From: Aliiglaciecola sp. CAU 1673
GTDB taxonomy: Bacteria; Pseudomonadota; Gammaproteobacteria; Enterobacterales; Alteromonadaceae
Length of the DNA stretch: 64,000 nt
Direction of reading: 5' to 3'
Assembly: GCF_029223185.1 (NCBI RefSeq)
Contig: NZ_JARHUG010000015.1
Span: forward strand, 1 to 64,000
In this document: piece after piece, positions 5,581 to 19,587 of the stretch
Numbering within the stretch: the first letter of the stretch is position 1
How the letters are laid out: every line of letters begins with the position of its first letter
Notes under the pieces: model-generated
Told to the model about the DNA's origin: nothing
What the model saw: the letters and a program-made list of their open reading frames with translations, nothing else
Databases searched by the model: none
Program-made: the position numbers and the translations under genes

Positions 5581-6087
5581 ATGAAGTCCGTGATCTTTAC
5601 CCTGCTAGGCAAAGACAAGCCCGGCATTATGGAAGCCATTTCCCGAACCGTCAGAAAACAAGATGGCAACTGGCTGGCCAGTAACTTTGCCCATATGGGC
5701 GGACACTTCACTGGCTTTGTGGAAGTACAGTTACCCGAAGACAATATCCAGCCACTGCTCAATCAGCTGGATGCCATGCCGGAGCTGAATATTCGCCTGG
5801 TACAAGGCGATACTCAGGGGGCCAGTCAGACCCACAAGGCCGCACTCGAGATAATGGGCAACGATAAACCGGGGATAGTGCAGGAACTCACTTCGGTGTT
5901 GCACAAATTCAATATCAATATTCTTAAGTTCAGTTCCAGCTGTGAGCCGGCTCCTAATTGGGGTGGTCAGTTATTTAAGGCCAGTGTGCAGATCGAGTTT
6001 CCTGATAAATTCGATTTGGACCCACTGCGTCAGGCGCTGGAGCAGATCGCCAACGATATGGTGGTGGATGTAGAATGGCAGGGCTGA
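5581..6087 (+). CDS. ACT-domain regulator, GcvR-like
   Basis: The 168-residue protein has two ACT-type domains. The first (about 3-75) opens with FTLLGKDKPGIMEAISRTV, the second (about 87-165) with LEIMGNDKPGIVQELTSVL. This layout matches the glycine cleavage system repressor family (GcvR), whose members bind a small ligand and act on a partner such as GcvA rather than on DNA directly. A good ribosome-binding site, TAGGAGA, lies just before the ATG. It diverges from pstC, with 172 bp between them. The family is likely; whether it controls glycine cleavage here is inference. Confidence 0.85.
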   Translation: MKSVIFTLLGKDKPGIMEAISRTVRKQDGNWLASNFAHMGGHFTGFVEVQLPEDNIQPLLNQLDAMPELNIRLVQGDTQGASQTHKAALEIMGNDKPGIVQELTSVLHKFNINILKFSSSCEPAPNWGGQLFKASVQIEFPDKFDLDPLRQALEQIANDMVVDVEWQG

Positions 6088-6136
6088 GCCCTCAGGGTTG
6101 AACCCGCAGGGGTTAGGCCCTAGGGTCAGCCTGCTT

Positions 6137-6158
6137 CTGTCACAAAAGCTTCATCCAG
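6137..6158 (+). promoter_or_regulatory. Putative Pho box upstream of ppk1
   Basis: CTGTCAC (6137-6143), AAAA, then GCTTCAT (6148-6154) resembles the PhoB direct-repeat operator: two CTGTCAT-like 7-mers separated by 4 AT-rich bases. An extended -10, TG-C-TAAAAT (6175-6183), follows at a plausible distance before the ppk1 start at 6216. This fits control of polyphosphate synthesis by phosphate starvation, known in several gammaproteobacteria. The second half-site matches only partly. Confidence 0.55.
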
Positions 6159-6215
6159 TATGCGGAACCTAATTTGCTAAAATCCGGCGCTAATACGCCC
6201 CTTGCTAAGTATCTC

Positions 6216-8309
6216 ATGAGCACCTATACCACGCCCTATTACCCGAAAGAATTAAGCTGGTTGGCCTTTAACCAGCGCGTATTGCAGGAAGCCGCCGACA
6301 GGCGCAATCCGATCATTGAACGCATCCGTTTTTTGGGGATCTACTCCAATAACATGGATGAGTTCTATCGGGTGCGGGTGGCAGATGTAAAACGTCAGAT
6401 CTATATCCATCTGAACGATAAAAATATCGAAGCGGCGGAACAGACCAAAGCGCTGATGGATAAGATCCAGGCCAGGGTTAGGCTGATGACCACTGAGTTT
6501 GAGCGTGTCCATGCCGATGTGGTGACTCGTTTGGCCCGCTACAATATCCATTTGATATCCAAAGACGAATTGGACAGCTACCAGACGCAATGGGCCAAAG
6601 CTTACTTCCAGAATAAGCTGTTGCGTTATATCGCCCCAATTCTGATCACCAGCAAGGTCAACCTGGTAGAGCGTTTAAATGACGCCGCAACCTATCTTTT
6701 CGTTGGCATCCACAAAGAAGGCAAAGCCACTCAATATGCTGTGCTCGAAGTCCCTACCGAGTACACCAGCCGCTTTGTGCTGATCCCGCCGGAAAAAAGC
6801 CGTAAGAAGAAGCATATTGTGCTGCTCGATGACATTATTGGCCTGTGCCTGGACAGCATTTTTAAAGGCTTTCTCGACTTCGATCGCCTGGAAGCCTATT
6901 CCTTTAAGATGACCCGGGATGCGGAATACTCCATAAACGATGAAATTGATGAAAGTTATGTGGAGAAAATGTCCGAAAGCATGAAGCAGCGCCTGATTGC
7001 CGAGCCAGTACGCTTTATTTTCGACTCGGAAATGCCGGAAGACATGCTTCGTTTCCTGCAAAAGCAGCTGCATATTTCGTCATTGGACAGTCAAATCGCT
7101 TCCGGCCCCTATCGCAACTTCAAGGACTTTATCGGCTTCCCCAATGTGGGTCGCGAATACCTGGAAAACCCAACACTCCCGGCCATCAATACCCGGGATT
7201 TTGCCGATTTTGATACGGTTTTCGATGCCATCAGTCACCAGGATATTCTGCTTTACTATCCCTATCATCGATTCCTGCACCTGACCGAGTTTGTGCGCCA
7301 GGCCGCCTTTGACCCCAGCGTTAAACATATTCGCCTGAATATTTACCGGGTCGCCAGCCGCTCGCGCATCATCAACTCGCTAATCGATGCGGTCAATAAC
7401 GGTAAGCAGGTTACCGTGGTGGTGGAACTGCGGGCCCGTTTTGACGAAGAGGCTAATATTGAATGGTCTAAGGCCATGACCGATGCTGGCATTAAGGTGA
7501 TATTGGGCATTCCGACCCTGAAGATCCACGCCAAGCTGTGTGTCATCAGCCGCGAGGAAAAAGGCCAACTGATTCACTATGCGCACTTTGGCACCGGCAA
7601 CTTCAACGAGAAAACCGCCAAGATCTATACTGACTTCAGCCTGTTCACCCGCAATCAGGATCTTGCCCAGGAAGCGGTGGATGTGTTTGATTTCATTCAA
7701 TATCCCTACCGACGCTTTAAGTTTCAGTATTTGCAGGTCTCGCCTGTTAATGCCAGAACCAAGATCCAATTGCTGATCCGCCAGGAAATTCAAAACGCCA
7801 AGGAAGGGATCAAAGCGCAGATCCTGCTGAAGATTAACAATCTGGTCGATCTGTCACTCATCGAGGATCTTTACAAAGCCAGTCAGGCGGGCGTGCGTAT
7901 CCGGGCTATCGTCCGGGGAATGTGTGCTTTGGTACCAGGGGTCAAGGGGCTTAGTGATCACATTCATGTTATCAGCATCGTCGATCGCTTTTTAGAACAC
8001 CCCCGGGTCATGGTGTTTGAAAACGGCGGCGATCAAAAAATCTTTATCTCCTCTGCCGATTGGATGACCCGCAATATGGATAATCGTGTAGAAGTAGGCT
8101 GCCCTATACTGGATCCCAAGCTTAAGAAACGGGTGATTGATATTCTCAACATTCAATTCCGCGACACCGTTAAGGCCAGGGTTATCGATCAGGAGCAAAC
8201 CAACAAATATGTACGCCGTGGTAACCGACGGAAAATTCGCTCCCAGGAAGAGATCTACGAATACTTTAAGGCGCTGGAAACTGTGCCAAGAGAGCCAGGC
8301 GCTTCATGA
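6216..8309 (+). CDS. ppk1: Polyphosphate kinase 1
   Basis: The enzyme reversibly polymerises the terminal phosphate of ATP into polyphosphate. The product is 697 residues, close to E. coli PPK (688), with N-terminal domain signature YPKELSWLAFNQRVLQEA and the two catalytic histidines in IHAKL (H438) and YAHFGTGNFNE (H457). ATG at 6216 is chosen because an in-frame TTG at 6174 would sit inside the likely -10 box and give a poorly conserved extension. The stop overlaps the ppx start by 4 bp (ATGA), so the synthesis and breakdown enzymes are translationally coupled. A possible Pho box lies upstream. Confidence 0.96.
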   Translation: MSTYTTPYYPKELSWLAFNQRVLQEAADRRNPIIERIRFLGIYSNNMDEFYRVRVADVKRQIYIHLNDKNIEAAEQTKALMDKIQARVRLMTTEFERVHADVVTRLARYNIHLISKDELDSYQTQWAKAYFQNKLLRYIAPILITSKVNLVERLNDAATYLFVGIHKEGKATQYAVLEVPTEYTSRFVLIPPEKSRKKKHIVLLDDIIGLCLDSIFKGFLDFDRLEAYSFKMTRDAEYSINDEIDESYVEKMSESMKQRLIAEPVRFIFDSEMPEDMLRFLQKQLHISSLDSQIASGPYRNFKDFIGFPNVGREYLENPTLPAINTRDFADFDTVFDAISHQDILLYYPYHRFLHLTEFVRQAAFDPSVKHIRLNIYRVASRSRIINSLIDAVNNGKQVTVVVELRARFDEEANIEWSKAMTDAGIKVILGIPTLKIHAKLCVISREEKGQLIHYAHFGTGNFNEKTAKIYTDFSLFTRNQDLAQEAVDVFDFIQYPYRRFKFQYLQVSPVNARTKIQLLIRQEIQNAKEGIKAQILLKINNLVDLSLIEDLYKASQAGVRIRAIVRGMCALVPGVKGLSDHIHVISIVDRFLEHPRVMVFENGGDQKIFISSADWMTRNMDNRVEVGCPILDPKLKKRVIDILNIQFRDTVKARVIDQEQTNKYVRRGNRRKIRSQEEIYEYFKALETVPREPGAS

Positions 8310-9835
8310 TCCAACTTGCTAAAGCCTTCTCAGAGATAGAAAGCCGCGATACCACTCATGTGGCGGCATTGGATATTGGTTCCAACAGCTTTCATTTGGT
8401 AGTAGCCAGAATTGTAGCAGGCAGCGTGCAGATATTGTTTCGGGTGAAACAACGGGTGCGTTTGGCCGATGGGTTGGACAGCGAAGGGAATCTCGCCGCA
8501 GAAGCCATTGAAAGAGGCATTGAAGCATTGCAGCAGCTTGCTGACAGCTTACGTGGCTTTAATCCCGACTCGGTGCGCATTGTCGCTACCTACACCCTGC
8601 GTAAGGCCCGAAATGCCCATGACTTTATACGTGCCGCCCGCAGAGTACTCCCCTATCCGGTAGAGATTATTGCCGGTGTCGAAGAAGCCCGGTTGATTTA
8701 CCAAGGTGTTGCACACACCACCGAAAATGCGGGTAAACGTCTGGTCATCGACATCGGTGGTGGCAGCACAGAATTTATTATTGGTACCGGCTTCAAACCC
8801 GAGTTGTTGCGCAGCTTACAGATGGGTTGTGTAAGTTTTACCCAGCGTTTCTTTGCCAGTGGCGAATTAAAGAACAAGGCCTTTAACAAGGCCATTACCG
8901 CCGCGCGTCAAGAAATGGAAATGATCGACAAAAAATACCGGCAACTGGGCTGGGATGTGTGTATAGGCACCTCCGGCACAATCAAAACCATTGCCGGCCT
9001 CGCTCAGGAAATCAATTCCAACCTCAAGCCCGGTACCTTTACCCGCAGCGAACTGCAGAAGATGATTGAGATGTGCTGCAAGGCAGAGCATATCAACAAG
9101 CTCAATATCAATGGTCTTAGCGAAGACAGGGTGCCCGTCTTCGCCGCCGGCTTGGCGATCCTCAGCGCCTGTTTCGACAGTCTGGAAATCAAAGAGATGG
9201 AGTTCTCCCAGGCCGCCCTGCGTGAAGGCGTTATCTATGAGATGGAAGAGCGCCTGCAACATCAGGATATTCGCGAACGCACCGCCGAAAGCCTGGCCAT
9301 ACGATACGATGTGGATACCGATCATGCCAAACGGGTGTTACATACCACCCTGCAAATTTACCATCAGGTGGCAGAAGACTGGGACATTAAACATGACGAA
9401 TTGCACAGTCTGTTAGGCTGGGCCGCACTGTTGCATGAGGTGGGTCTGCAAATTAACTCCCGCGGCGTGCAGCGCCATTCCGGCTATATTCTGCAAAACG
9501 CTGAACTGCCAGGCTTTAACCAGGAGCAGCAAAACCTGCTGGCCAGTCTGGTGCGTTTTCATCGCAAGAAGATCAAAAACGCGGAGTTGACGGATTTTTC
9601 CCTATATAAACAGGAGCAGATCCTGCGCCTGATCTGCATCCTGCAATTGGGCGTGATGCTGAATATTAAGCGCCAGGACAATTTTTTGCCGAAAATCAGC
9701 GCCAAGGTGAAGGGGAATACTCTGTCTTTGGAATTTGCTGATGGCTGGCTAGATGAAACACCGCTGGTCAAAGCGGATCTGGATCTGCAAGCAGATATAA
9801 TGCGAGCCTGCGGCCTGAGCCTGAAATTTCGCTAA
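8306..9835 (+). CDS. ppx: Exopolyphosphatase (Ppx/GppA family)
   Basis: The product releases phosphate from polyphosphate ends, or guanosine pentaphosphate if GppA-like. At 509 residues it matches E. coli Ppx (513). The actin-like ATPase fold shows as LDIGSNSFHLVVARI (about 23-37) and DIGGGSTEFIIG (about 149-160). A C-terminal HD-type region, with LLGWAALLHEVG near 367-378 and an HSGY segment after it, follows as in Ppx. It overlaps ppk1 by ATGA, the usual ppk-ppx pairing, which favours Ppx over GppA. Confidence 0.94.
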   Translation: MIQLAKAFSEIESRDTTHVAALDIGSNSFHLVVARIVAGSVQILFRVKQRVRLADGLDSEGNLAAEAIERGIEALQQLADSLRGFNPDSVRIVATYTLRKARNAHDFIRAARRVLPYPVEIIAGVEEARLIYQGVAHTTENAGKRLVIDIGGGSTEFIIGTGFKPELLRSLQMGCVSFTQRFFASGELKNKAFNKAITAARQEMEMIDKKYRQLGWDVCIGTSGTIKTIAGLAQEINSNLKPGTFTRSELQKMIEMCCKAEHINKLNINGLSEDRVPVFAAGLAILSACFDSLEIKEMEFSQAALREGVIYEMEERLQHQDIRERTAESLAIRYDVDTDHAKRVLHTTLQIYHQVAEDWDIKHDELHSLLGWAALLHEVGLQINSRGVQRHSGYILQNAELPGFNQEQQNLLASLVRFHRKKIKNAELTDFSLYKQEQILRLICILQLGVMLNIKRQDNFLPKISAKVKGNTLSLEFADGWLDETPLVKADLDLQADIMRACGLSLKFR

Positions 9836-10112
9836 TGGATTCATGAATTTGTCACCCATTTGGGGCAGCATAGCGGGCTGCTAACGGTCAATCTGACGCC
9901 ATTTGCCTCATTTCTGGCAAGAATTTCGTCAGAATCAAAGACAATAGTGGAAACAATAAAGGGATAGAGGCAGTATATGTATGGAATCAGGTACCGGCCT
10001 TAGCATTCATATACCACGCCACCATCGCCTTTGTTGTAGGTCTGGGGTAGCGTATTTCGGCTGACCGACAACGACAGAACCAAACTAAACGAGAAAACCA
10101 AAGGAAGCATCC

Positions 10113-10385
10113 ATGAACAAGACTGATCTGATCAATCAAATGGCCGAGCGCGCCGACATCTCCAAAGCCACTGCTGGCCGCGTTATCGATGCCATGACTG
10201 GCGCCGTTACTGAAGCCCTGTCTAAAGGCGAAGAAGTTACCATCCTGGGCTTCGGCACATTCAAAATTTCTGAGCGTGCTGCCCGCACTGGCCGCAACCC
10301 ACAAACCGGCGCCGTGATCCAAATCGCAGCCTCCAAAGTGCCTTCATTCAAAGCCGGTAAAGCTCTGAAAGACGCTTGCAACTAA
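10113..10385 (+). CDS. HU family DNA-binding protein
   Basis: The 90-residue nucleoid protein is typical of [13 protein letters not shown] at the start, the [21 protein letters not shown] arm region (about 46-66) and a C-terminal [12 protein letters not shown] bends DNA and compacts the chromosome as a homo- or heterodimer. It is closest in appearance to HU-alpha (HupA), but one sequence cannot settle hupA versus hupB. AAAGGAAG precedes the ATG. It is a single-gene unit with 277 bp of upstream DNA in which I recognise no clear promoter, ended by a strong terminator. Confidence 0.95.
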
Positions 10386-10406
10386 TCATCAGATTAATTG
10401 CATAAA

Positions 10407-10433
10407 GGGCGCCAAATGGCGCCCTTGTTGTTT
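10407..10433. terminator. Bidirectional terminator between the HU gene and the sugar dehydrogenase gene
   Basis: GGGCGCC (10407-10413), loop AAAT, GGCGCCC (10418-10424), then TTGTTGTTT. The other strand has TTTAT after the hairpin. It lies between convergent genes and probably serves both. Confidence 0.8.
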
Positions 10434-11519
10434 CTAGTGACGGGTTATCGCGAACAACCGGCCATCATCACTCAAAAGATAGATCTCACCTCTTGGCCCC
10501 ACTTCAATATCTCTGAGCCGGGTCGCCAACTCCGTAAACAGACTCTCTTGTGCAGTCACCCTGCCCTTGTCCAGCACCACCCTGCGTACTTCCTGGCTTT
10601 TTAGGGTGGTGGAAAGCAAATCCCCTGTTAACTCGGAAAACATAGCACCACGATAAACCACCAGCGCCGATGGAGCGATAGAGGGCGTCCAATCCACCAG
10701 CGGCTGCTGCATACCAGGATACTCCGTAAAAGGGCTGATTTGCGCGCCGGAATAGTCCTTACCGTAGGTGATCACCGGCCAGCCGTAATTTTTTCCAGCC
10801 TCGATGAGGTTGATCTCATCACCGCCTTTAGGGCCATGTTCATTGGCAAACAGTTGCTTGCGGACCGGATCGAAGGCCAGTCCCTGTGGATTACGATGAC
10901 CCAGGCTATAAAGGCCTGTGGCTCCACCTTCAATAGCAGGGTTGTCAGTAGGTAGACTGCCATCATCCATCAGCCTGATCATTTTCCCCAGATGATTGGA
11001 TGGCACTTGCGCCTGCTCCCGGTAGTCAAAGCCATCGCCGCTGCTCAGTACCAGGCTGTTATCCTGCAAAAACGCCAGCCGCCCGCCATAATGCACCGGC
11101 GTGGCTTTTAAAGGCTCTGCACTGAATAACACTTGTTGTTCTATCAACTTGTTGTCTTTGAGCTTGGCACGCATCAAACGCAATTGATTCCCGTTTTCCT
11201 GGCCATGGGCATAGGTTAGGTACAGCCAACCATTTTCGGCATAATCCGGATGCAGCACCACATCCATCAATCCGCCCTGGCTTTTAAAAAAGACCTCAGG
11301 TACCCCTTGAATCGGCGCGGAAATCTGCCCGTCTTCAACGATGCGTAGCTGTCCCGATTTTTCCGACACCAGAAAACGGCCCTCAGACAAGATAACCACC
11401 GCCCAGGGGAAATGGAGGCCACTAATCACTTCCCTGACTTGATAATCCGGCATGGGTGTTTGCGCCATACCTGGCAGACTCAGGCACAGTGCGCCGATCA
11501 ACCCAATCAGCCTTTTCAT
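10434..11519 (-). CDS. PQQ-dependent soluble sugar dehydrogenase (Asd/YliI type)
   Basis: The secreted periplasmic protein has 361 residues and an N-terminal signal peptide (MKRLIGLIGALCLSLPGMAQ). It shows the six-bladed propeller motifs of soluble aldose sugar dehydrogenases: HFPWAVVIL, GGLMDVVLHPDY, HYGGRLAFL, GHRNPQGLAFDP, NEHGPKGGDEINLIEAGKNYGWP. These enzymes oxidise aldoses with PQQ as cofactor. No PQQ synthesis gene is visible here, so the cofactor may be scavenged. The start at 11519 is preferred over an in-frame codon at 11543 because it gives a clean signal peptide and follows AAGGAG by 10 bp. Confidence 0.88.
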   Translation of the reverse strand: MKRLIGLIGALCLSLPGMAQTPMPDYQVREVISGLHFPWAVVILSEGRFLVSEKSGQLRIVEDGQISAPIQGVPEVFFKSQGGLMDVVLHPDYAENGWLYLTYAHGQENGNQLRLMRAKLKDNKLIEQQVLFSAEPLKATPVHYGGRLAFLQDNSLVLSSGDGFDYREQAQVPSNHLGKMIRLMDDGSLPTDNPAIEGGATGLYSLGHRNPQGLAFDPVRKQLFANEHGPKGGDEINLIEAGKNYGWPVITYGKDYSGAQISPFTEYPGMQQPLVDWTPSIAPSALVVYRGAMFSELTGDLLSTTLKSQEVRRVVLDKGRVTAQESLFTELATRLRDIEVGPRGEIYLLSDDGRLFAITRH

Positions 11520-11622: not shown

Positions 11623-13632
11623 TCAGACCACCCAGCCCAAAGCCTGAGCACGCTCATGAGCAAGCGCGGGGATATCCTGCTCGACAAAGTGACGGTGCAG
11701 CATCATCACACCCAATACATGGTTAAGCAGGGCATCGATCTGCACTTTGTCGGCTGCCGGTGTGCTCTCACTCTCCTGACGGGCCATCAGCGTTTGCACA
11801 AAATCGCTGTCCACCAGACCCGTTTTGGCCAGAGCAGATGGCGAGGCATACTTCTCAAATAAGCCTTTGAGTTTTTTCCACTTTTTATCGTCGGTATGGG
11901 CAGGCGGCGCCATAAAGGCAAACTTCTGACGTTCATATAACACCGTCGGCAAGAGTCCTTTCATGGCCTCTCGCAGCACGTGTTTTTCTTTACTCCCTTT
12001 GATGCGAAGCTGAGGTGGAATGGTGGCGGCAAACTCGGCTAAGTGATGATCCAGGAAGGGCGGACGAGCCTCCATGGAATTGGCCATATCGACCCTGTCT
12101 CCGCCCCAAGTCAGGATCTGTCCTTCGAGCATGGTTTTTATCCACACATACTGGGCTTTATCCAACGGGTGGCGCCCCTCTAAATAGCTATCATCCAACT
12201 TTGCAGCAATCGCAGTTCCTGGCTCATATTCCGCTAATTCATCGCGAATATCCGGGTGCAGCAATTGCCTGGCTAATTCCGAACAGCCCAACCAGGGCTG
12301 CAAACAGCTTGGGGTGAATCCGACCTTGGCATTGATGGCATCGGAGACATATTCATCTTTGGGCAGCATGGCACCTTGGAACAGCTTGTTGGAATCCGCC
12401 AGGGTGCGCTGCCACTCTGCCGCCTGAGCACTGTCCAAACCTTCCATACCATGCAGGAACATGTCTTTTCTGAAAGCCGGATAGCCGGCAAATAGCTCAT
12501 CGGAGCCCTCACCGGTTAACACGACTTTGTATTGGTTGTGGGTGACATGCTGACTCATCATCAGCTTGGCCACCGCCAGCGTGTTATAGATAGTGCGCTC
12601 GGTATGCCACAAGGTACGGGCGAAATTATCGTAAAGCAGGTCAGCATTGAGTTTTAGGATATCCTGCTCGGCACCAGTGGCCCTGGCCATTTCGGTGGCA
12701 ATGGTCGCTTCATCGTATTCGTCATGGTCGAAACCGATGGTGAAGGCGCGAATGGGAAACTGGGAAGCTGAGGAAGCCAGGCCCAAAATTGAACAGGAAT
12801 CGATACCGCCGGAAAGATAACAGCCTACCGGCACATCCGCATTGAGGCGCAGTTGCACTGCTTCCAACAGTTCTCTGCGTACCCCCTCTACGTAGTATTC
12901 ATCGTCATGACGTGGGCGCGCTTCGGGCAAGGGGAAATCCATATCCCAGTATTTATGGGTTTCTATTTTAAAGCGCCCCTGATGACGGGTGATCTTAAGC
13001 ATATGGCCAGGTTCGACCTGATGTATGCCCTTAAAGGCGGTGGTGCCCGGCACCATCACCTGAATCAGTTGATGGAACAGTCCTTTGTTATCAAACTCGG
13101 CCTGTACCTGCGGATGGGCGAGTACGGTTTTGACTTCAGATCCGAATACAATATGGTCATCGGTTTGCGTCCAGTACAAAGGCTTGATACCAAAGCGGTC
13201 TCGCACCAGGTAGAGGCTGTCCTTTGCCTCGTCATACAAGGCAAAGGCAAATTCACCGCGCAAATGGGGTAAGGTTTTTTGCATGCCTAAGCGCAGGTAA
13301 AGATGGGGCACGATTTCTGAATCGGATTTGGTCTCGAAATGCTCGCCCTGCGCAGTTAACTCGGCACGAATACGTTGGTAATCATAAAACTCGCCGTTGT
13401 GGGCGAAGATAAGCTGTCCGCCATGCATAAAAAACGGCTGCCGGCCACGGCTTTCATTCAGGTCGATAATCGATAGCCGGGCATGGCTCATGCCCATACC
13501 GACCCCGGCAGGATTGCAATACCCGTAATTATCAGGTCCCCGGTGGTGCATGATGGCGGCCATATTGACCAGGACTTGCGAGTCAATGTCATTCTGTTTA
13601 CGACTGGCAAAGATACCGGCTATTCCACACAT
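11623..13632 (-). CDS. Glutamine-hydrolysing asparagine synthase-type amidotransferase
   Basis: The 669-residue protein has an N-terminal Ntn glutaminase domain: catalytic Cys2 in MCGIAG, HHRGPD (29-34), SHARLSI (49-55), NGE (79-81) and SDSE (103-106). A synthetase domain follows with the ATP-pyrophosphatase loop SGGIDS (274-279) and LTGEGSDELFAGYP. It is about 115 residues longer than E. coli AsnB. It may make asparagine, or may amidate another carboxylate, as related enzymes do. It has a good ribosome-binding site (AGGAG). It lies 70 bp after the carbamoyltransferase-like gene on the same strand, in a cluster with a symporter and opposite a carbamoylase, which makes a special substrate plausible. 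Confidence 0.85.
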   Translation of the reverse strand: MCGIAGIFASRKQNDIDSQVLVNMAAIMHHRGPDNYGYCNPAGVGMGMSHARLSIIDLNESRGRQPFFMHGGQLIFAHNGEFYDYQRIRAELTAQGEHFETKSDSEIVPHLYLRLGMQKTLPHLRGEFAFALYDEAKDSLYLVRDRFGIKPLYWTQTDDHIVFGSEVKTVLAHPQVQAEFDNKGLFHQLIQVMVPGTTAFKGIHQVEPGHMLKITRHQGRFKIETHKYWDMDFPLPEARPRHDDEYYVEGVRRELLEAVQLRLNADVPVGCYLSGGIDSCSILGLASSASQFPIRAFTIGFDHDEYDEATIATEMARATGAEQDILKLNADLLYDNFARTLWHTERTIYNTLAVAKLMMSQHVTHNQYKVVLTGEGSDELFAGYPAFRKDMFLHGMEGLDSAQAAEWQRTLADSNKLFQGAMLPKDEYVSDAINAKVGFTPSCLQPWLGCSELARQLLHPDIRDELAEYEPGTAIAAKLDDSYLEGRHPLDKAQYVWIKTMLEGQILTWGGDRVDMANSMEARPPFLDHHLAEFAATIPPQLRIKGSKEKHVLREAMKGLLPTVLYERQKFAFMAPPAHTDDKKWKKLKGLFEKYASPSALAKTGLVDSDFVQTLMARQESESTPAADKVQIDALLNHVLGVMMLHRHFVEQDIPALAHERAQALGWVV

Positions 13633-13702: not shown

Positions 13703-14776
13703 TCAAATCACATCCAACACCCGCTCTGCGCGTCTGACCAGACAGGTTAACAGCGCCATCCGCAGGAACACCGCGCCCCGGGCTTGCGAGAAATACCAGT
13801 TGTGGGATGTGTTATCCAAGCTGGTACTCAGTTCCTCGCCCCTGGCCAGGGGATGCAGGATGATGGCATCGGCCTTCAGCGGCGAATCCTGGTCCAGGCC
13901 ATATCGCTTGCCATATTGTTTAAAGGTATCGCCCTCCCAGGAAATGGCATTGATGTAGACCACATCCGCTTGCGGCAGCACTTCATAGAGGTCGTCACAG
14001 GTCCTGACGTTTAGACCTGCTTCCTCCATTTGTGCCAGTTGCCCCTCACTGAACATCTCTTCGGCATTTTTGTCGTTGATGATGGTGACCCGGCTGAAGC
14101 ACTGCGGAAACACACACAGCAGTTTGAGCAGGCTGCGCACGGTGCGCATTTTCGCCGGCAAGCCGACAATGCAGATATCCAACGGCTGTGGCGGTGTTTC
14201 TTCCACCAGGGAAGGCCGCCATTTAAATATGGTGTACAGATCGGCAAGCGCCTGGGTGGGATGTTCATCGGTGCCGTTGCCAGCATTAATAATGGGAATA
14301 CGCAGGCTGCTCATCATTTCCCGGACAGAGACTTCTTTAGAGTCACGCAGCACTACGCAATCACCGTAGTTATTGAACATTTCGGCCACATCACGCAGCG
14401 ACTCCCCTTTGGCGATACCAGTGGTGGAACGGTCAGTAATCGACATGATGTCCCCCCCCAAACGGTGCCAGGCACTCTCGAAGGACAAGCGGGTGCGGGT
14501 ACTGGGCTCATAAAAGGCCGAGATCAGGATCTGCCCATTCAAAGAAGAGCTAAAACGATCGGGGTTGGCTTCGTATTTAGCAGCCAGACGAAACAGTTGC
14601 AGCAGGGTGTTGCGGTCAAACTGATCAGCCGAGTAAATATGCTGATCGGAGAGCCTAGTCAGATGGTCGCCGTCTTCGACAATGGCCCGAAGCAATTTTT
14701 TAGGATGAGCATCACCGTGCACATCGGGGCGACTACGATCAAACTGGATCACGCGTTCAAGATTGGGATCTACCAT
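13703..14776 (-). CDS. Aspartate carbamoyltransferase-like protein with altered amino-acid site
   Basis: The 357-residue protein is in the ATCase/OTCase superfamily. The carbamoyl-phosphate site is intact: STRTR (92-96), a lysine in GIAKGES (K123, like Lys84 of E. coli PyrB), R144, HPTQ (172-175). R211 matches Arg167. The aspartate-binding pair Arg229/Gln231 (motif TRVQ) is replaced by YINAISW (about Ala277/Ser279), and the conserved HPLPR reads HPLAR (308-312). There is a roughly 40-residue N-terminal extension. The true acceptor may therefore not be aspartate, so I do not call it pyrB. The ATG overlaps the stop of a 40-residue gene and follows AAGGAT. Confidence 0.8.
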   Translation of the reverse strand: MVDPNLERVIQFDRSRPDVHGDAHPKKLLRAIVEDGDHLTRLSDQHIYSADQFDRNTLLQLFRLAAKYEANPDRFSSSLNGQILISAFYEPSTRTRLSFESAWHRLGGDIMSITDRSTTGIAKGESLRDVAEMFNNYGDCVVLRDSKEVSVREMMSSLRIPIINAGNGTDEHPTQALADLYTIFKWRPSLVEETPPQPLDICIVGLPAKMRTVRSLLKLLCVFPQCFSRVTIINDKNAEEMFSEGQLAQMEEAGLNVRTCDDLYEVLPQADVVYINAISWEGDTFKQYGKRYGLDQDSPLKADAIILHPLARGEELSTSLDNTSHNWYFSQARGAVFLRMALLTCLVRRAERVLDVI

Positions 14777-14892
14777 AAAGATTTATCCTTAAGGTCAAGG
14801 GCATAAAATAACAGCAGCACCAGCGGCGCCAGGGCAGTTCCGATAAGAGCTATCCACACCAGTAAGGCGAGTAGAGATTCACTGAGATACAT
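14770..14892 (-). CDS. Small single-span membrane protein, 40 residues
   Basis: This short ORF encodes one strongly hydrophobic segment (about residues 6-32) ending in the charged tail DLKDKSLW. It starts 14 bp inside the 3' end of the symporter gene behind a near-perfect ribosome-binding site (AAGGAGG, 7 bp from the ATG). Its stop codon overlaps the start of the carbamoyltransferase-like gene (ATGGTAG). That coupling on both sides argues strongly for translation. I recognise no family. It may be a small accessory subunit of the symporter, as small membrane proteins accompany some other SSS-family transporters. Confidence 0.75.
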   Translation of the reverse strand: MYLSESLLALLVWIALIGTALAPLVLLLFYALDLKDKSLW

Positions 14893-16309
14893 CTTTGGCC
14901 TCCTTAAACAAGCGCCAGTCGAAGCGCCCAGGCTTCAGCCATAGTCCCAGCAAGCAGACAGCAAAAGACACAAGACAAGAACTGATGGCGGCCACATAAA
15001 AGCCAATTGAAAAATACAGGATAAGACTGCACAGGGTCCCAAGTGCCATGGCCGCTGCGGCGAAACGCCCGGTTAAACCAGGGTGATAAAGCCCAAACAC
15101 GATGGGAAAAATGGTGGACGCCACAAAGGCGCCGGTGAAATTGAGTAGCGCCCCCAAAGTCGCCATCTTGGGCAAGCACAACAACCAGGTCACCACTCCC
15201 AGCCCCACCACAATCCACTTGTTGGCTTTGAGTAGTTCGTCGCTGGCGGCTTTGGGTCTGAGCAAACGCTTGTAACCGTCCTGGGTTAATAAGTCGGAAG
15301 TGGCCGCCAGTAGCGAGTCCATGCTTGATGCCAAAGCCGAAAACACCACTACAAACACAAATACCGCACCGATACTGCCCAGCAATTTGGCCGCCACCAG
15401 CGGCCCCACCATATCCGCACTCGGTGGCACAATGCCCAGACTCATCGCCGACAGAGCAATAAAGCCGGTGACAATAGGAATAGGCAGCCACAGCAGGCCG
15501 GCGGTAAAATAGGCCCGGCGTCCAATACCAGCTTTGAAGGCAAAGGCGCGCGACCACCAGACATTGGAATGAAATATCTCACCAATGCCAAAAAAGATGT
15601 TATTAAACAAAAACATAATAGCGGCGGGAAAGGCCAGATTGAGCAATTCCGGTTGCCACTCACTGACCTTGCTGTGAATTTCGGAAATACCTACCGTATC
15701 GATACAGACCCAGGCAATAATCAGCACCCCGGCCAGGATCAGCAAGGATTGCACAAAATCCGTGGCGATCACCGCTTTGAGCCCCCCCAGCAAGGTGTAG
15801 AGCACACATATCAGTAAAATGGCGCTCATGCCGGTGTGATAATCCAAATCACTTAAGGATGAGAGCAAAATGCCACCGGCCATGCCCAGGCTCACCAACC
15901 AGCCAATGGCATAACACAGAGAAATCAGCATAAACACCCACCAAGCGCTTTTGCCGTAGCGGGTGCGGATAAAATCACCGCTGGTAAAACCATGGGGCAT
16001 CAGTGCTTTAATACGCGCCGCCATGGGCGCAAACAACAACAATCCCAACGCCGCCATGCTGTAACCGACCATCCCCCACACCCCAAACTGATAAGTCAGT
16101 TGCGGCGCCACCAGGGTGGTATTGCTGGTGATCCAGGTGGCCATAGCCGTAGCGGTGGCAAAAGCCAATCCCACATTACGCCCGGCCAGGGCAAAGTCGT
16201 CGATGCTGCGGTTATTGCGTCCCAAAAACCAACCAAATGCGACCCACAAAAGCCCAAAGCCAAGCAAAATAAACATGGCTACAGAGGCGTCTAACTGTGC
16301 CTCAAGCAT
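14879..16309 (-). CDS. Sodium:solute symporter (SSS family)
   Basis: The 476-residue membrane protein has about 12-13 hydrophobic segments. Family features include FALAGRNVGLAFATATAMATW near the N-terminus, TSGDFIRTRYGKSAWW, LLGGLKAVIATDFVQ and FSALASSMDSLLAATSDLL. It would couple substrate uptake to sodium. FGIGEIFHSNVWWSRAFA recalls the urea/ureide-type Dur3 branch, but this is an impression, not a proven subgroup. It overlaps the upstream gene by 8 bp and the downstream small membrane gene by 14 bp, so the block is one operon. With a carbamoylase alongside, an N-carbamoyl or ureido compound is a reasonable substrate guess. Confidence 0.88.
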   Translation of the reverse strand: MLEAQLDASVAMFILLGFGLLWVAFGWFLGRNNRSIDDFALAGRNVGLAFATATAMATWITSNTTLVAPQLTYQFGVWGMVGYSMAALGLLLFAPMAARIKALMPHGFTSGDFIRTRYGKSAWWVFMLISLCYAIGWLVSLGMAGGILLSSLSDLDYHTGMSAILLICVLYTLLGGLKAVIATDFVQSLLILAGVLIIAWVCIDTVGISEIHSKVSEWQPELLNLAFPAAIMFLFNNIFFGIGEIFHSNVWWSRAFAFKAGIGRRAYFTAGLLWLPIPIVTGFIALSAMSLGIVPPSADMVGPLVAAKLLGSIGAVFVFVVVFSALASSMDSLLAATSDLLTQDGYKRLLRPKAASDELLKANKWIVVGLGVVTWLLCLPKMATLGALLNFTGAFVASTIFPIVFGLYHPGLTGRFAAAAMALGTLCSLILYFSIGFYVAAISSCLVSFAVCLLGLWLKPGRFDWRLFKEAKDVSQ

Positions 16310-16712
16310 GGTTTTGCTCCCGCCGTTGGAAGACCAGTAGCAAGGTCAGCAGGAATAAAAATGCCAGCAGGCCAATAAAAAACAGCGCCAGCGCCTGTTC
16401 GAGGGAATGGTGGCTTACTTCAATTTCTGCCAACAGTCTTGGCGGATCAGCGGGATCACGGGACAGAAGCCTTGCCTGGTAGTGACCATCGGCAAAGCCC
16501 GAAAGGGTAGCTTGACGTTGACCTGTGACGTCAACGCGAACCGTCTTTGCAGCATCATCGAGGGAGATGATCTGCAATGTGTCATAACGACCTTCATACT
16601 CTTCAAAGTGCAGCACGAAGTAACCTTCCTGTGACTGCACTTGCTCTGCTGCTCCCCCTTGGGCGAAGCAAAAGAGCAATAACATCAAGGCCCTACAAAG
16701 AGTACCTACCAT
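16302..16712 (-). CDS. Exported protein with C-terminal membrane anchor, unknown function
   Basis: The 136-residue protein has an N-terminal signal segment (about 5-22), a mostly beta-like soluble part (FVLHFEEYEGRYDTLQI..., about 31-95), and one membrane helix near the C-terminus (about 105-128) followed by QRREQNHA. The middle part would face the periplasm. I do not recognise a family. It is the first gene of the minus-strand operon and overlaps the symporter by 8 bp, which suggests a partner role in transport or substrate binding. The 77 bp to the divergent hydrolase gene must hold both promoters. Confidence 0.75.
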   Translation of the reverse strand: MVGTLCRALMLLLFCFAQGGAAEQVQSQEGYFVLHFEEYEGRYDTLQIISLDDAAKTVRVDVTGQRQATLSGFADGHYQARLLSRDPADPPRLLAEIEVSHHSLEQALALFFIGLLAFLFLLTLLLVFQRREQNHA

Positions 16713-16789: not shown

Positions 16790-18028
16790 ATGCCCCAAGT
16801 ACACATCGAATTGTCCAGATTACAAAACGACCTGCTGGAACTGGCCCACATTGGCTACGACCCCATCAGTAAAGGGATCAACCGCCCCGGCTTTAGCGAG
16901 GCCGATATGCAGGCCAGGCGCTGGCTTATGGACAAGCTGGAAAAGGAGGGATTTTCGGCGGCCCTGGATAGCGCCGGCAATGTGATTGGCAGTTTATATC
17001 CGGATTGGGACGGACCTGTGGTGGCCATGGGTTCGCATATCGACTCGGTCCCCTGTGGCGGTATGTTTGATGGTACCTTGGGCGTGCTGGCTGGCCTTGA
17101 ATGCATGCGGGTGGCACGAGATCTCAAACTGGATCTGAAGTTTCCATTCGAAATCTACGCCTTTGCCGAAGAGGAAGGTCGTTTTGGCGGCATGATGGGG
17201 GTGCAAGCCATTACCGGACAACTCACCCCTGACTGGCTGGAGAAAGCCCATGATGCCAGTCACAAGCTCCTTAAAGATGAAATGGAAAAGTGCGGTCTGA
17301 ATGCCATTGATGCCCTTAATGCCCGGGTCGACCCCAAACATTTTCATGCCTTTTTGGAACTGCATATTGAACAAGGACCGGTACTTGAGCGCATCGGTAA
17401 GCCTATTGGCGTGGTAGAAGCCATCTCCGGTGTTTACAAATGGCTGGTGCGCCTGATTGGCAAGGCTAATCACGCCGGTACCGCGCCCATGGATATGCGT
17501 AGCGACGCCTTTATGGGGCTGGCCGACTTTGCCCATGAGATTCCGCGCATTATCAGCGAAGAAGGCACCGACAAAAGCCGTTTAACAGTAGGTAAGGTGG
17601 AACTCAAGCCCGGCTATGCTCACACCGTGCCGGGTGAGGCCGAATTTACCCTGGTCGGTCGGGATACCGATCCACAAATCATGCGCAACCTGGCCGACGC
17701 CTGTCGCAAGGTACTCTCTTCCATTGCCCGTAAACACAATCTGATGTTCGAATTTGAACAAATGAGTTGGCTGGAACCACAGGCCATGTCTGATCAGGTT
17801 GTCAAAGCTTTTTGTAATCAGGCCAAAAAGCTTGAACTGGAGCATGTGGTAATGCCTAGCGGTGCCGGTCACGACGCTCAGTATATGGCGCAAGTTACCC
17901 CCACCGGCATGATCTTTGTGCCAAGCGTCGGCGGGGTTAGTCATGCACCGGATGAATGGACTCATTGGCAGGACATCGAAAAAGGTGCCAATTTGCTATT
18001 GCAAACTGCATTACATTACGCCCATTAG
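16790..18028 (+). CDS. M20 family Zn hydrolase (N-carbamoyl amino acid / ureide amidohydrolase type)
   Basis: The 412-residue protein has the length and motifs of the AllC/HyuC group. Likely metal ligands are H83 in GSHIDSVPCGG, D94 in MFDG, E128/E129 in AEEEGRFGG, H192 in ELHIEQGPVLE and H385 in GGVSHAPDEW. The dimerisation-domain motif GKANHAGTAPMDMRSDA (about 224-240) is present. Family members split the C-N bond of N-carbamoyl amino acids, allantoate or beta-ureido acids. ATG at 16790 follows GGAGG closely and gives family length; upstream in-frame codons would run into the divergent gene. It faces the carbamoyltransferase-like/symporter operon, so the products may act in one pathway. Confidence 0.88.
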   Translation: MPQVHIELSRLQNDLLELAHIGYDPISKGINRPGFSEADMQARRWLMDKLEKEGFSAALDSAGNVIGSLYPDWDGPVVAMGSHIDSVPCGGMFDGTLGVLAGLECMRVARDLKLDLKFPFEIYAFAEEEGRFGGMMGVQAITGQLTPDWLEKAHDASHKLLKDEMEKCGLNAIDALNARVDPKHFHAFLELHIEQGPVLERIGKPIGVVEAISGVYKWLVRLIGKANHAGTAPMDMRSDAFMGLADFAHEIPRIISEEGTDKSRLTVGKVELKPGYAHTVPGEAEFTLVGRDTDPQIMRNLADACRKVLSSIARKHNLMFEFEQMSWLEPQAMSDQVVKAFCNQAKKLELEHVVMPSGAGHDAQYMAQVTPTGMIFVPSVGGVSHAPDEWTHWQDIEKGANLLLQTALHYAH

Positions 18029-18639: not shown

Positions 18640-19587
18640 TTATTCGCTTGTCATCGCCAGCGTTGAGCCAAGCTCTTTGACCAGCCCAAGCACATTCCAA
18701 CTCATCAGCATACGCGCATCCAAGCCATAGTCGTAGAAGTAAGGGTAAGCGGCGAGAATGTCATCCACTACCTTGGTGAGCGCTTCGCGGGTTAATTGCC
18801 CTTTGTCATCCAAATTGCCAGGCATACTCATTGCCGCTGATACTGTTTCCCGTAGCAAACGCACCTGAGCAATATGCTGATCAACAATATTTAAACGGGC
18901 AGGATCGCCATGACCTGCATACAGGGTTTGCGCCTCAGGGAATTCCTTTTTCAGACGCTCAAAGGCCAATAGCGCCTCTGCTGAATGACCTTCGCCCACA
19001 TAGTAAAAACTGCGGTGCATGGTGGCATCGCCAGTAAACAGCCAACGCTGCGCTGGAAAATACAACACCAGTTGCGCTTCGGCCTCTCCGGCGCCGAGAT
19101 CCACTGGCAGAAACTCGATATCGCCGATATTTAGCACCTTGCCACTTTCCAGTACCTGCGGCGTTATCCAGGTAGATTCTAGATCATCACCATACATGGG
19201 CTTGTAGCTGGTCAGAAATTGATTGTGAAAAGGCTCGATGCCTTGCACCACCGACGCAATGCTATACAACGGAAATTCACCTAGCTGACGGCGCAGTTCA
19301 GAAAACCCGGCAAAGTGGTCTGAATGAGCGTGGGTGATAATCGCCGCCAGCAATGGTTTTTTCAGGCTTTTTATCTGTGCGGCCAGTAGCTTTGCGTCAG
19401 AATTAAGCATTTGACCGTCGATCAACAGCAATCCCTTTTCCGACTCAATCAGGTAAGAGTTGACCGACCAGGTCTGCTCAGAAACATGGCGATGTACTTT
19501 TAGTGCACTTTGTTTTGCAGCGGCAACACTCTGGGTACAAAGCAGGGCCAGCAAAACGGCAAAAAAGACTTTTCTAAATATCAACAT
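18640..19587 (-). CDS. Exported metallo-beta-lactamase-fold hydrolase
   Basis: The 315-residue protein has a signal peptide (cleavage near VAAA, residues 21-24), then the MBL metal motif HAHSDH (86-91), a GDA segment (FTGDATMH) and GHGD later. It is a zinc hydrolase of the broad MBL superfamily acting in the periplasm. The LLLIDGQML strand before the motif is typical of the fold. Substrate cannot be told: family members include lactamases, glyoxalase II-like enzymes and quinoprotein-relay-type proteins. It stands alone on the minus strand. Confidence 0.88.
   Translation of the reverse strand: MLIFRKVFFAVLLALLCTQSVAAAKQSALKVHRHVSEQTWSVNSYLIESEKGLLLIDGQMLNSDAKLLAAQIKSLKKPLLAAIITHAHSDHFAGFSELRRQLGEFPLYSIASVVQGIEPFHNQFLTSYKPMYGDDLESTWITPQVLESGKVLNIGDIEFLPVDLGAGEAEAQLVLYFPAQRWLFTGDATMHRSFYYVGEGHSAEALLAFERLKKEFPEAQTLYAGHGDPARLNIVDQHIAQVRLLRETVSAAMSMPGNLDDKGQLTREALTKVVDDILAAYPYFYDYGLDARMLMSWNVLGLVKELGSTLAMTSE

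Follow-up and report, generated by a model that had tools for sequence, protein, structure and literature searches.

The question raised by this locus is which substrate is used by an enzyme that resembles aspartate carbamoyltransferase (ATCase) and lacks two of the residues that hold aspartate. Its gene lies in the window, which is the whole stretch of 64,000 nucleotides from Aliiglaciecola sp. CAU 1673 that was analysed, and it stands among the following neighbours:

11623..13632, (-) strand: AsnB-like glutamine-hydrolysing amidotransferase of 669 aa, starting Met-Cys-Gly; proposed to be an N-carbamoylglutamine 1-amidotransferase
13703..14776, (-) strand: ATCase-like carbamoyltransferase without Arg229 and Gln231; a putative L-glutamine N-alpha-carbamoyltransferase
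14879..16309, (-) strand: SSS-family Na+/solute symporter; proposed to recapture the product
16302..16712, (-) strand: small membrane-anchored protein with no Pfam family; has counterparts in the cluster at other loci
16790..18028, (+) strand: amidohydrolase of the M20 hydantoinase/carbamoylase family, in divergent orientation; proposed to serve turnover as an N-carbamoyl-amino-acid hydrolase

The carbamoyltransferase gene is separated by 70 bases from that of the amidotransferase and by 102 bases from that of the symporter. The M20 protein resembles the hydantoinase/carbamoylase-family amidases, whose general cut-off it passes (TIGR01879, 342 bits for a cut-off of 204; NF006771, 504 for 399), but it falls below the cut-off for the ErtE N-carbamyl-L-glutamate amidohydrolase (349 of 520 bits). 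No isochorismatase-type amidase was seen in the cluster of the window. The small membrane protein at 16302-16712 is possibly a partner of the symporter. At 18640-19587 there is a gene for a hydrolase of the metallo-beta-lactamase fold, whose similarity to subclass B1 is weak (58 bits in models with a cut-off of 200).

Fold and active site of the carbamoyltransferase

The carbamoyltransferase has 357 residues, starts with ATG and contains the Pfam domains PF02729 (139 bits) and PF00185 (50 bits). Its best family matches are ATCase models (199-201 bits), and it falls short of the cut-off in each of the curated ATCase models listed, with 199.4 bits in TIGR00670 (cut-off 237) and 201.2 bits in NF002032 (cut-off 263). 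The earlier note had proposed a comparison with the ATCase, OTCase and YgeW families, and the protein lies below the curated cut-offs of them all. It is rejected as an OTCase (TIGR00658, 93.4 bits vs 281), as YgeW (TIGR03316, 35.1 bits vs 500, with the YgeW models together giving 35-36 bits for cut-offs of 453-500) and, on score, as a putrescine carbamoyltransferase (68 of 500 bits). YgeW and the putrescine and N-acetylornithine carbamoyltransferases belong to the same superfamily and likewise use another second substrate, but their scores of 35 of 500, 68 of 500 and 37 of 288 bits set them apart.

The AlphaFold model of the protein has a mean pLDDT of 85 and can be superimposed on the PALA-bound E. 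coli ATCase (1d09) with a Z score of 36.8 and an rmsd of 1.9 Å over 300 residues. ATCases fill the displayed rows of structure matches, the highest Z score being 37.5, and the modelled fold is that of ATCase. As the alignment with E. coli PyrB begins at residue 43, the protein is extended at its N-terminus by about 40 residues, in agreement with the earlier description. The extension is conserved among the relatives, its Pro25 and Glu34 being present in 105 of 107 alignment rows.

The active site is described here in the numbering of E. coli PyrB, with the reference sequence read from MG1655. In ATCase, Arg167 holds the alpha-carboxylate of aspartate, and Arg229 and Gln231 serve its beta-carboxylate. 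Residues Ser52, Thr53, Arg54, Thr55, Lys84, Arg105, His134, Gln137 and Arg167 are all kept in the window protein. The changes are Thr228 to Asn, Arg229 to Ala, Gln231 to Ser, Lys232 to Trp and Pro268 to Ala, the last of which turns HPLPR into HPLAR. The intact carbamoyl-phosphate site, the Ala and Ser in place of Arg229 and Gln231, and the HPLAR sequence had all been read correctly from the sequence before this alignment was made.

The same pattern extends through the family. An alignment of 106 orthologous loci and the window (107 rows) contains 101 distinct sequences after removal of duplicates. Among these, Arg54, Lys84, Arg105, His134 and Arg167 are kept in 101/101 and Gln137 in 100/101, the single exception having Lys. 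Arg229 and Gln231 are retained in none of the 101 sequences, so the substitution is a family trait and not a chance event. Position 229 is Ala in 69, Ser in 27, Thr in four and Lys in one, and position 231 is Ala in 83, Ser in 16, Val in one and Leu in one. Asn228, Trp232 and Ala268 are fixed in 101/101, forming a new Asn-x-Ile-x-Trp motif next to HPLAR. The orthologues with Thr at position 229 (L096, L100, L112, L113) and the one with Lys (L124) are possibly substrate variants. In a Candidatus Tenderia MAG, the carbamoyltransferase stretch at 7001-8044 of locus L092 contains one stop codon, which represents either a pseudogene or an assembly error.

A supply of the missing Arg and Gln from another loop would have contradicted the earlier reading. 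No replacement was recognised in the alignment, but Arg333 of the window protein, newly conserved in the family (105/107 rows), is a possible candidate. The carbamoyltransferase thus shares with PyrB the fold, the carbamoyl-phosphate site and residues Lys84, Arg105, His134, Gln137 and Arg167, but differs from it in the replacement of Thr228, Arg229, Gln231, Lys232 and Pro268 in 101/101 sequences, in its conserved N-terminal extension and in its genomic partners. Such a pocket is what would be expected for an alpha-amino acid substrate with a neutral side chain; by sequence, asparagine or another neutral amino acid may fit it equally well.

The scores and the residues together reject the protein as an ordinary pyrB product. 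The standard pyrB that the earlier note expected elsewhere in the genome is found on contig C35; it encodes 338 aa with the TRIQEERF and HPLPR motifs, and an OTCase-type gene (argF) lies on contig C36. Fourteen genomes were examined for carbamoyltransferase genes. Thirteen of them carry the gene of the cluster, 12 having three carbamoyltransferase genes and G304 four; the sole non-carrier, G052, showed none. There are no pyrimidine genes in the conserved cluster. A different amine substrate, as proposed earlier, is supported by the loss of two ligands with Arg167 kept, the presence of a normal pyrB and a cluster free of pyrimidine genes.

The amidotransferase and the conserved cluster

The amidotransferase passes the general asparagine synthase model TIGR01536 (434 bits, cut-off 267), and its N-terminus, MCGIAG, contains the N-terminal Cys. 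It falls below the specific cut-offs of NF006949 (267.5 vs 499 bits), TIGR03104 (298 vs 570) and TIGR03108 (393 vs 817), and by score it is placed neither with asparagine synthase B nor with the amidotransferases of the NAGGN (N-acetylglutaminylglutamine amide) or XrtA type. The AsnB proteins of the clusters are 58-100% identical to that of the window, and other paralogues are at most 35% identical. In a tree of AsnB proteins, 21 cluster rows lie together on the same side of a branch whose support is 100/100; non-cluster row L150 joins the cluster rows, and there are long branches among the non-cluster rows. The E. coli row of this tree is a C-terminal fragment, and its place is taken by rows L182 and L164, which are canonical and full-length.

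A canonical asnB is encoded separately in the window genome, on contig C18 (947 bits, cut-off 499). As the cluster proteins also form a clade of their own, plain asparagine synthesis by the window protein is judged unlikely. In genome G031 the copy in the cluster is the only match to the Asn_synthase family, so that there the cluster AsnB might also serve asparagine synthesis. The genome of E. marismortui encodes separate amidotransferases of the NAGGN type (a true TIGR03104 member, 985 bits) and of the XrtA type. The AsnB paralogues L159, L161, L149 and L166 (590-594 aa) form one clade, in which L159, from E. marismortui, is the NAGGN amidotransferase by model score. In G164 and G077, the paralogues of 590-594 aa are encoded some 3-6 kb away from another gene for a carbamoyltransferase.

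The carbamoyltransferase and the AsnB-like amidotransferase are the core of a conserved cluster. Gene order was counted within the fetched stretch (7 kb flanks, several loci ending at contig edges) for the best 80 of 575 relatives. All of these named loci are carriers, so absences among them are uninformative, and the list leans towards the lineage of E. marismortui because the first sequence of the scan came from that genus. The set A2 takes in 33 of the 80 loci and the window. Besides the core pair (CT and AsnB), the clusters may contain a Na+/solute symporter (SSS), an M20 hydrolase, an isochorismatase-type amidase (iso, PF00857), a small membrane protein, a MarR regulator and, at a few loci, an MscS channel. 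Among the best 80 of 575, the order is M20-iso-SSS-CT-AsnB in 33, SSS-CT-AsnB in 20, M20-iso-CT-AsnB in nine, SSS-CT-M20-iso-AsnB in eight and M20(opposite strand)-SSS-CT-AsnB in four; six further orders occur singly. Counted gene by gene, the same 80 loci contain AsnB in 77, SSS in 69, M20 in 57 and the isochorismatase-type amidase in 52. The three without AsnB are L071 and L129, which stop at a contig edge, and L065 of Thiorhodospira sibirica, whose genome has both core genes with AsnB located elsewhere (63-64% identical to that of the window).

Of the 20 loci that have only SSS-CT-AsnB, six are cut by contig ends and 14, from Idiomarina, Aliidiomarina and Pseudidiomarina, are complete over 7 kb on either side. 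The frequent occurrence of the core pair without hydrolases in the linked stretch of these 14 loci argues for synthesis, and loci with the core pair and the symporter alone suggest that synthesis is the function of the core.

The two core enzymes also occur together across genomes. A sample of 369 genomes of the class contains 22 with the carbamoyltransferase (E<=1e-80) and 23 with the AsnB-like protein (E<=1e-150), and 22/22 carriers of the former have both (Fisher p 1.6e-34, relatedness being ignored). The 23rd genome with AsnB, G368, is 78% complete and has the end of a carbamoyltransferase gene, cut at a contig edge, beside AsnB. Ectoine synthase, which exceeds its curated cut-off in 52 of the 369 genomes, is not associated with the system (2/22 carriers vs 50/347 others, Fisher p 0.75, again ignoring relatedness).

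The neighbouring genes were grouped by single linkage in the 102 of 108 loci that were kept as non-duplicates. One group of small membrane proteins is present in 68 of these loci; in the window clade the small protein has 136 aa, lies outside this group and matches L054 and L055 by tblastn. A MarR-type regulator is encoded within the fetched stretch of 40/102 loci. Eleven loci were searched for MscS. A complete gene is found 3' of AsnB in L038, where it starts 10 bases behind, and in L062, L093 and L186; in L039 it is 1.6 kb away, in L060 and L061 the match covers 60-63 residues, and none was found beside the clusters of L063, L064, L066 (E. marismortui) and L067.

Eight Ectothiorhodospira records (L060-L064, L066, L067 and L093) and T. 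sibirica head the named carriers among the best 80 of 575, and Thioalkalivibrio, Thiohalobacter, Leptospiraceae MAGs, Kangiella, relatives of Idiomarina and others follow lower down. Plasmids gave no match at E<=1e-60. When 398 genomes of the phylum were sampled with an Ectothiorhodospira query, two had a match at E<=1e-80. One is the window genome; the other, G580, matches with 49% identity, reads Ala-Ile-Ala-Phe where the site is altered and has the same partner genes. The locus of G580 (L185, positions 5948-10576) is from outside the class and encodes a carbamoyltransferase and an AsnB that are 45% and 49% identical to those of the window, with a symporter and an M20 hydrolase as partners; Phe replaces the invariant Trp, and the locus is an outlying branch of the system.

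Carbamoyl-glutamine amide as the probable product

The compound to which these observations point is carbamoyl-glutamine amide (CGA), described in 1991 from one purple bacterium (reference in PMC1224877). The paper that cites this work names E. marismortui as the source of CGA and states that the modifications mask the charges of the alpha-amino and alpha-carboxyl groups (PMC1224877). In another report, CGA is said to have been found in one organism only (PMC3857566). The genome record FOUO is listed as E. marismortui DSM 4180T in PMC8877833. Locus L066 belongs to this record and has the order M20-iso-CT-AsnB, with the core pair present. We take DSM 4180 to be the strain used in the 1991 work. 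Its genome (G378) has three carbamoyltransferase genes in total, that of the cluster and two others. The carbamoyltransferase of the cluster is carried by 10/10 genomes of Ectothiorhodospira, one of them only partly matched, and by 41/47 genomes of the family of E. marismortui, including 38/38 of those with a completeness of 90% or more and a contamination of no more than 5%.

CGA is glutamine to which a carbamoyl group and an alpha-amide have been added, so that its formation calls for a carbamoyltransferase and an amidotransferase, one of each. We assign a probability of roughly 0.7 to the explanation that the carbamoyltransferase carbamoylates L-glutamine, that the amidotransferase amidates the alpha-carboxyl group to give CGA, and that the accessory genes recapture and degrade this product. 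The earlier note named no substrate and made no mention of the cluster; glutamine is proposed here because of the association with CGA and the retention of Arg167. Judged from its genes, the cluster probably makes, imports and breaks down CGA, a salt-protecting molecule.

The process can be pictured as follows. In the first step, carbamoyl phosphate and L-glutamine would form N-carbamoyl-L-glutamine by reaction at the alpha-amine. The kept Arg167 would hold the alpha-carboxylate of glutamine, and the Asn-x-Ile-x-Trp/HPLA pocket would take the neutral amide side chain where the beta-carboxylate of aspartate would otherwise sit. In the second step, the AsnB-like enzyme would activate the alpha-carboxyl group with ATP and amidate it with glutamine-derived ammonia, yielding CGA, in which both charges of glutamine would be masked. 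In the synthesis of NAGGN, amidation by an AsnB-type relative is the last step. This and the retention of Arg167 suggest that carbamoylation precedes amidation. The NAGGN amidotransferase (TIGR03104) is a close parallel, being of AsnB type and making a product that is likewise an N-capped, amidated glutamine osmolyte (PMC1224877); the window protein differs from it in score (298 of 570 bits) and belongs to a separate clade. The Na+ symporter would recapture leaked solute and, where present, the isochorismatase-type amidase and the M20 hydrolase would return CGA to glutamine. EctR and CosR are known osmolyte regulators of the MarR type. The MarR regulator, and the MscS channel in a few relatives, would fit an osmotic control of the system.

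Physiological reports bear on this proposal in several ways. PMC7824335 describes T. sibirica as having no annotated osmotic-stress genes and counts CGA among its candidate solutes. In a Raman study of E. marismortui extracts CGA gave no signal, although the spectral library used did not contain it (PMC3857566). In T. versutus at 3 M Na+, genes for nitrate import, nitrite reductase and glutamine synthetase are reported to rise and betaine genes to stay unchanged (PMC9062515). This induction of nitrogen assimilation fits a nitrogen-rich solute and is no proof of one; the words carbamoyltransferase and asparagine synthase have 0 occurrences in the text of that study of the T. versutus D301 salt transcriptome (PMC9062515).

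Several points speak against CGA as the product. Besides the Raman result, the absence of these genes from the T. versutus text and the missing association with ectoine synthase, the cluster is present in many bacteria with no reported CGA, E. marismortui being the only carrier that we found reported as a CGA maker, and in 8/8 Ectothiorhodospira clusters the carbamoyltransferase adjoins AsnB and is accompanied by the M20 hydrolase and the amidase, with no symporter; nor was MscS found beside the cluster of E. marismortui. The gene is retained in nearly the whole family, whose main solute is reported to be betaine, and this could also indicate a role other than osmoprotection.

Competing explanations and implications

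The alternative that survives best, while itself unlikely, is that the same two-enzyme logic leads to another product, either a carbamoylated and amidated amino acid (derived, for example, from asparagine) or an N-carbamoyl amino acid, serving as a neutral solute or a nitrogen store. The pocket indicates only a held alpha-carboxylate and probably a neutral side chain, and the rise of nitrogen uptake and glutamine synthetase in T. versutus would suit any nitrogen-rich product (PMC9062515). However, CGA needs exactly such a pair of reactions, and the species from which it was described has the pair, with three carbamoyltransferase genes in all.

We consider it improbable that the cluster breaks down ureides or hydantoins, with the carbamoyltransferase running in reverse to convert an N-carbamoyl compound into carbamoyl phosphate. 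A reverse, carbamoyl-phosphate-yielding direction has been discussed for YgeW-type enzymes, and the M20 carbamoylase-family and isochorismatase-type hydrolases, at 57 and 52 of the best 80 of 575 loci, would fit degradation. However, the protein reaches 35-36 bits in the YgeW models, whose cut-offs are 453-500, and 14 full-flank loci among the same 80 have no linked hydrolase. Carbamoylation or phosphorolysis had both been offered earlier for this enzyme; of the two, phosphorolysis is less likely, given that the enzyme's constant partner, the amidotransferase, uses ATP.

It is very doubtful that the pair is a divergent ordinary ATCase of pyrimidine synthesis beside an ordinary asparagine synthetase. 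The top family matches and the fold are indeed those of ATCase, and the cluster AsnB is the sole family member found in G031, but the carbamoyltransferase lies below every listed ATCase cut-off, retains Arg229 and Gln231 in 0/101 sequences and coexists with a normal pyrB in the window genome and with at least three carbamoyltransferase genes in all in 13/13 carriers examined, and the window genome has its canonical asnB (947 bits for 499). Least probable of all is that the amidotransferase makes the glutathione amide of purple sulfur bacteria and is unrelated to the carbamoyltransferase: PMC8877833 considers glutathione amide likely in most Chromatiaceae and Ectothiorhodospiraceae, but it also describes E. 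mobilis DSM 237 and E. marismortui, both carriers of the cluster, as lacking the glutathione reductase used as a proxy, and the two genes co-occur strictly, also in relatives of Idiomarina and Kangiella.

CGA remains the preferred product. No paper linking genes to CGA was found in the open-access texts that were searched. So far as we have searched, the carbamoyltransferase pocket and its pairing with the amidotransferase are new; the superfamily of each enzyme was already known. If the proposal is correct, genes would be assigned to an osmolyte that is known and has had none, and the presence of the carbamoyltransferase gene in all 38 genomes of high completeness from the E. marismortui family, where family models score it merely as ATCase-like, would be explained. 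It is rather probable that CGA is a widespread salt protectant, occurring from Ectothiorhodospira and Thioalkalivibrio to Kangiella, relatives of Idiomarina and some Leptospiraceae, with import, breakdown and release genes of its own. A nitrogen-rich osmolyte that surveys of betaine and ectoine would miss would then be predicted in many bacteria.
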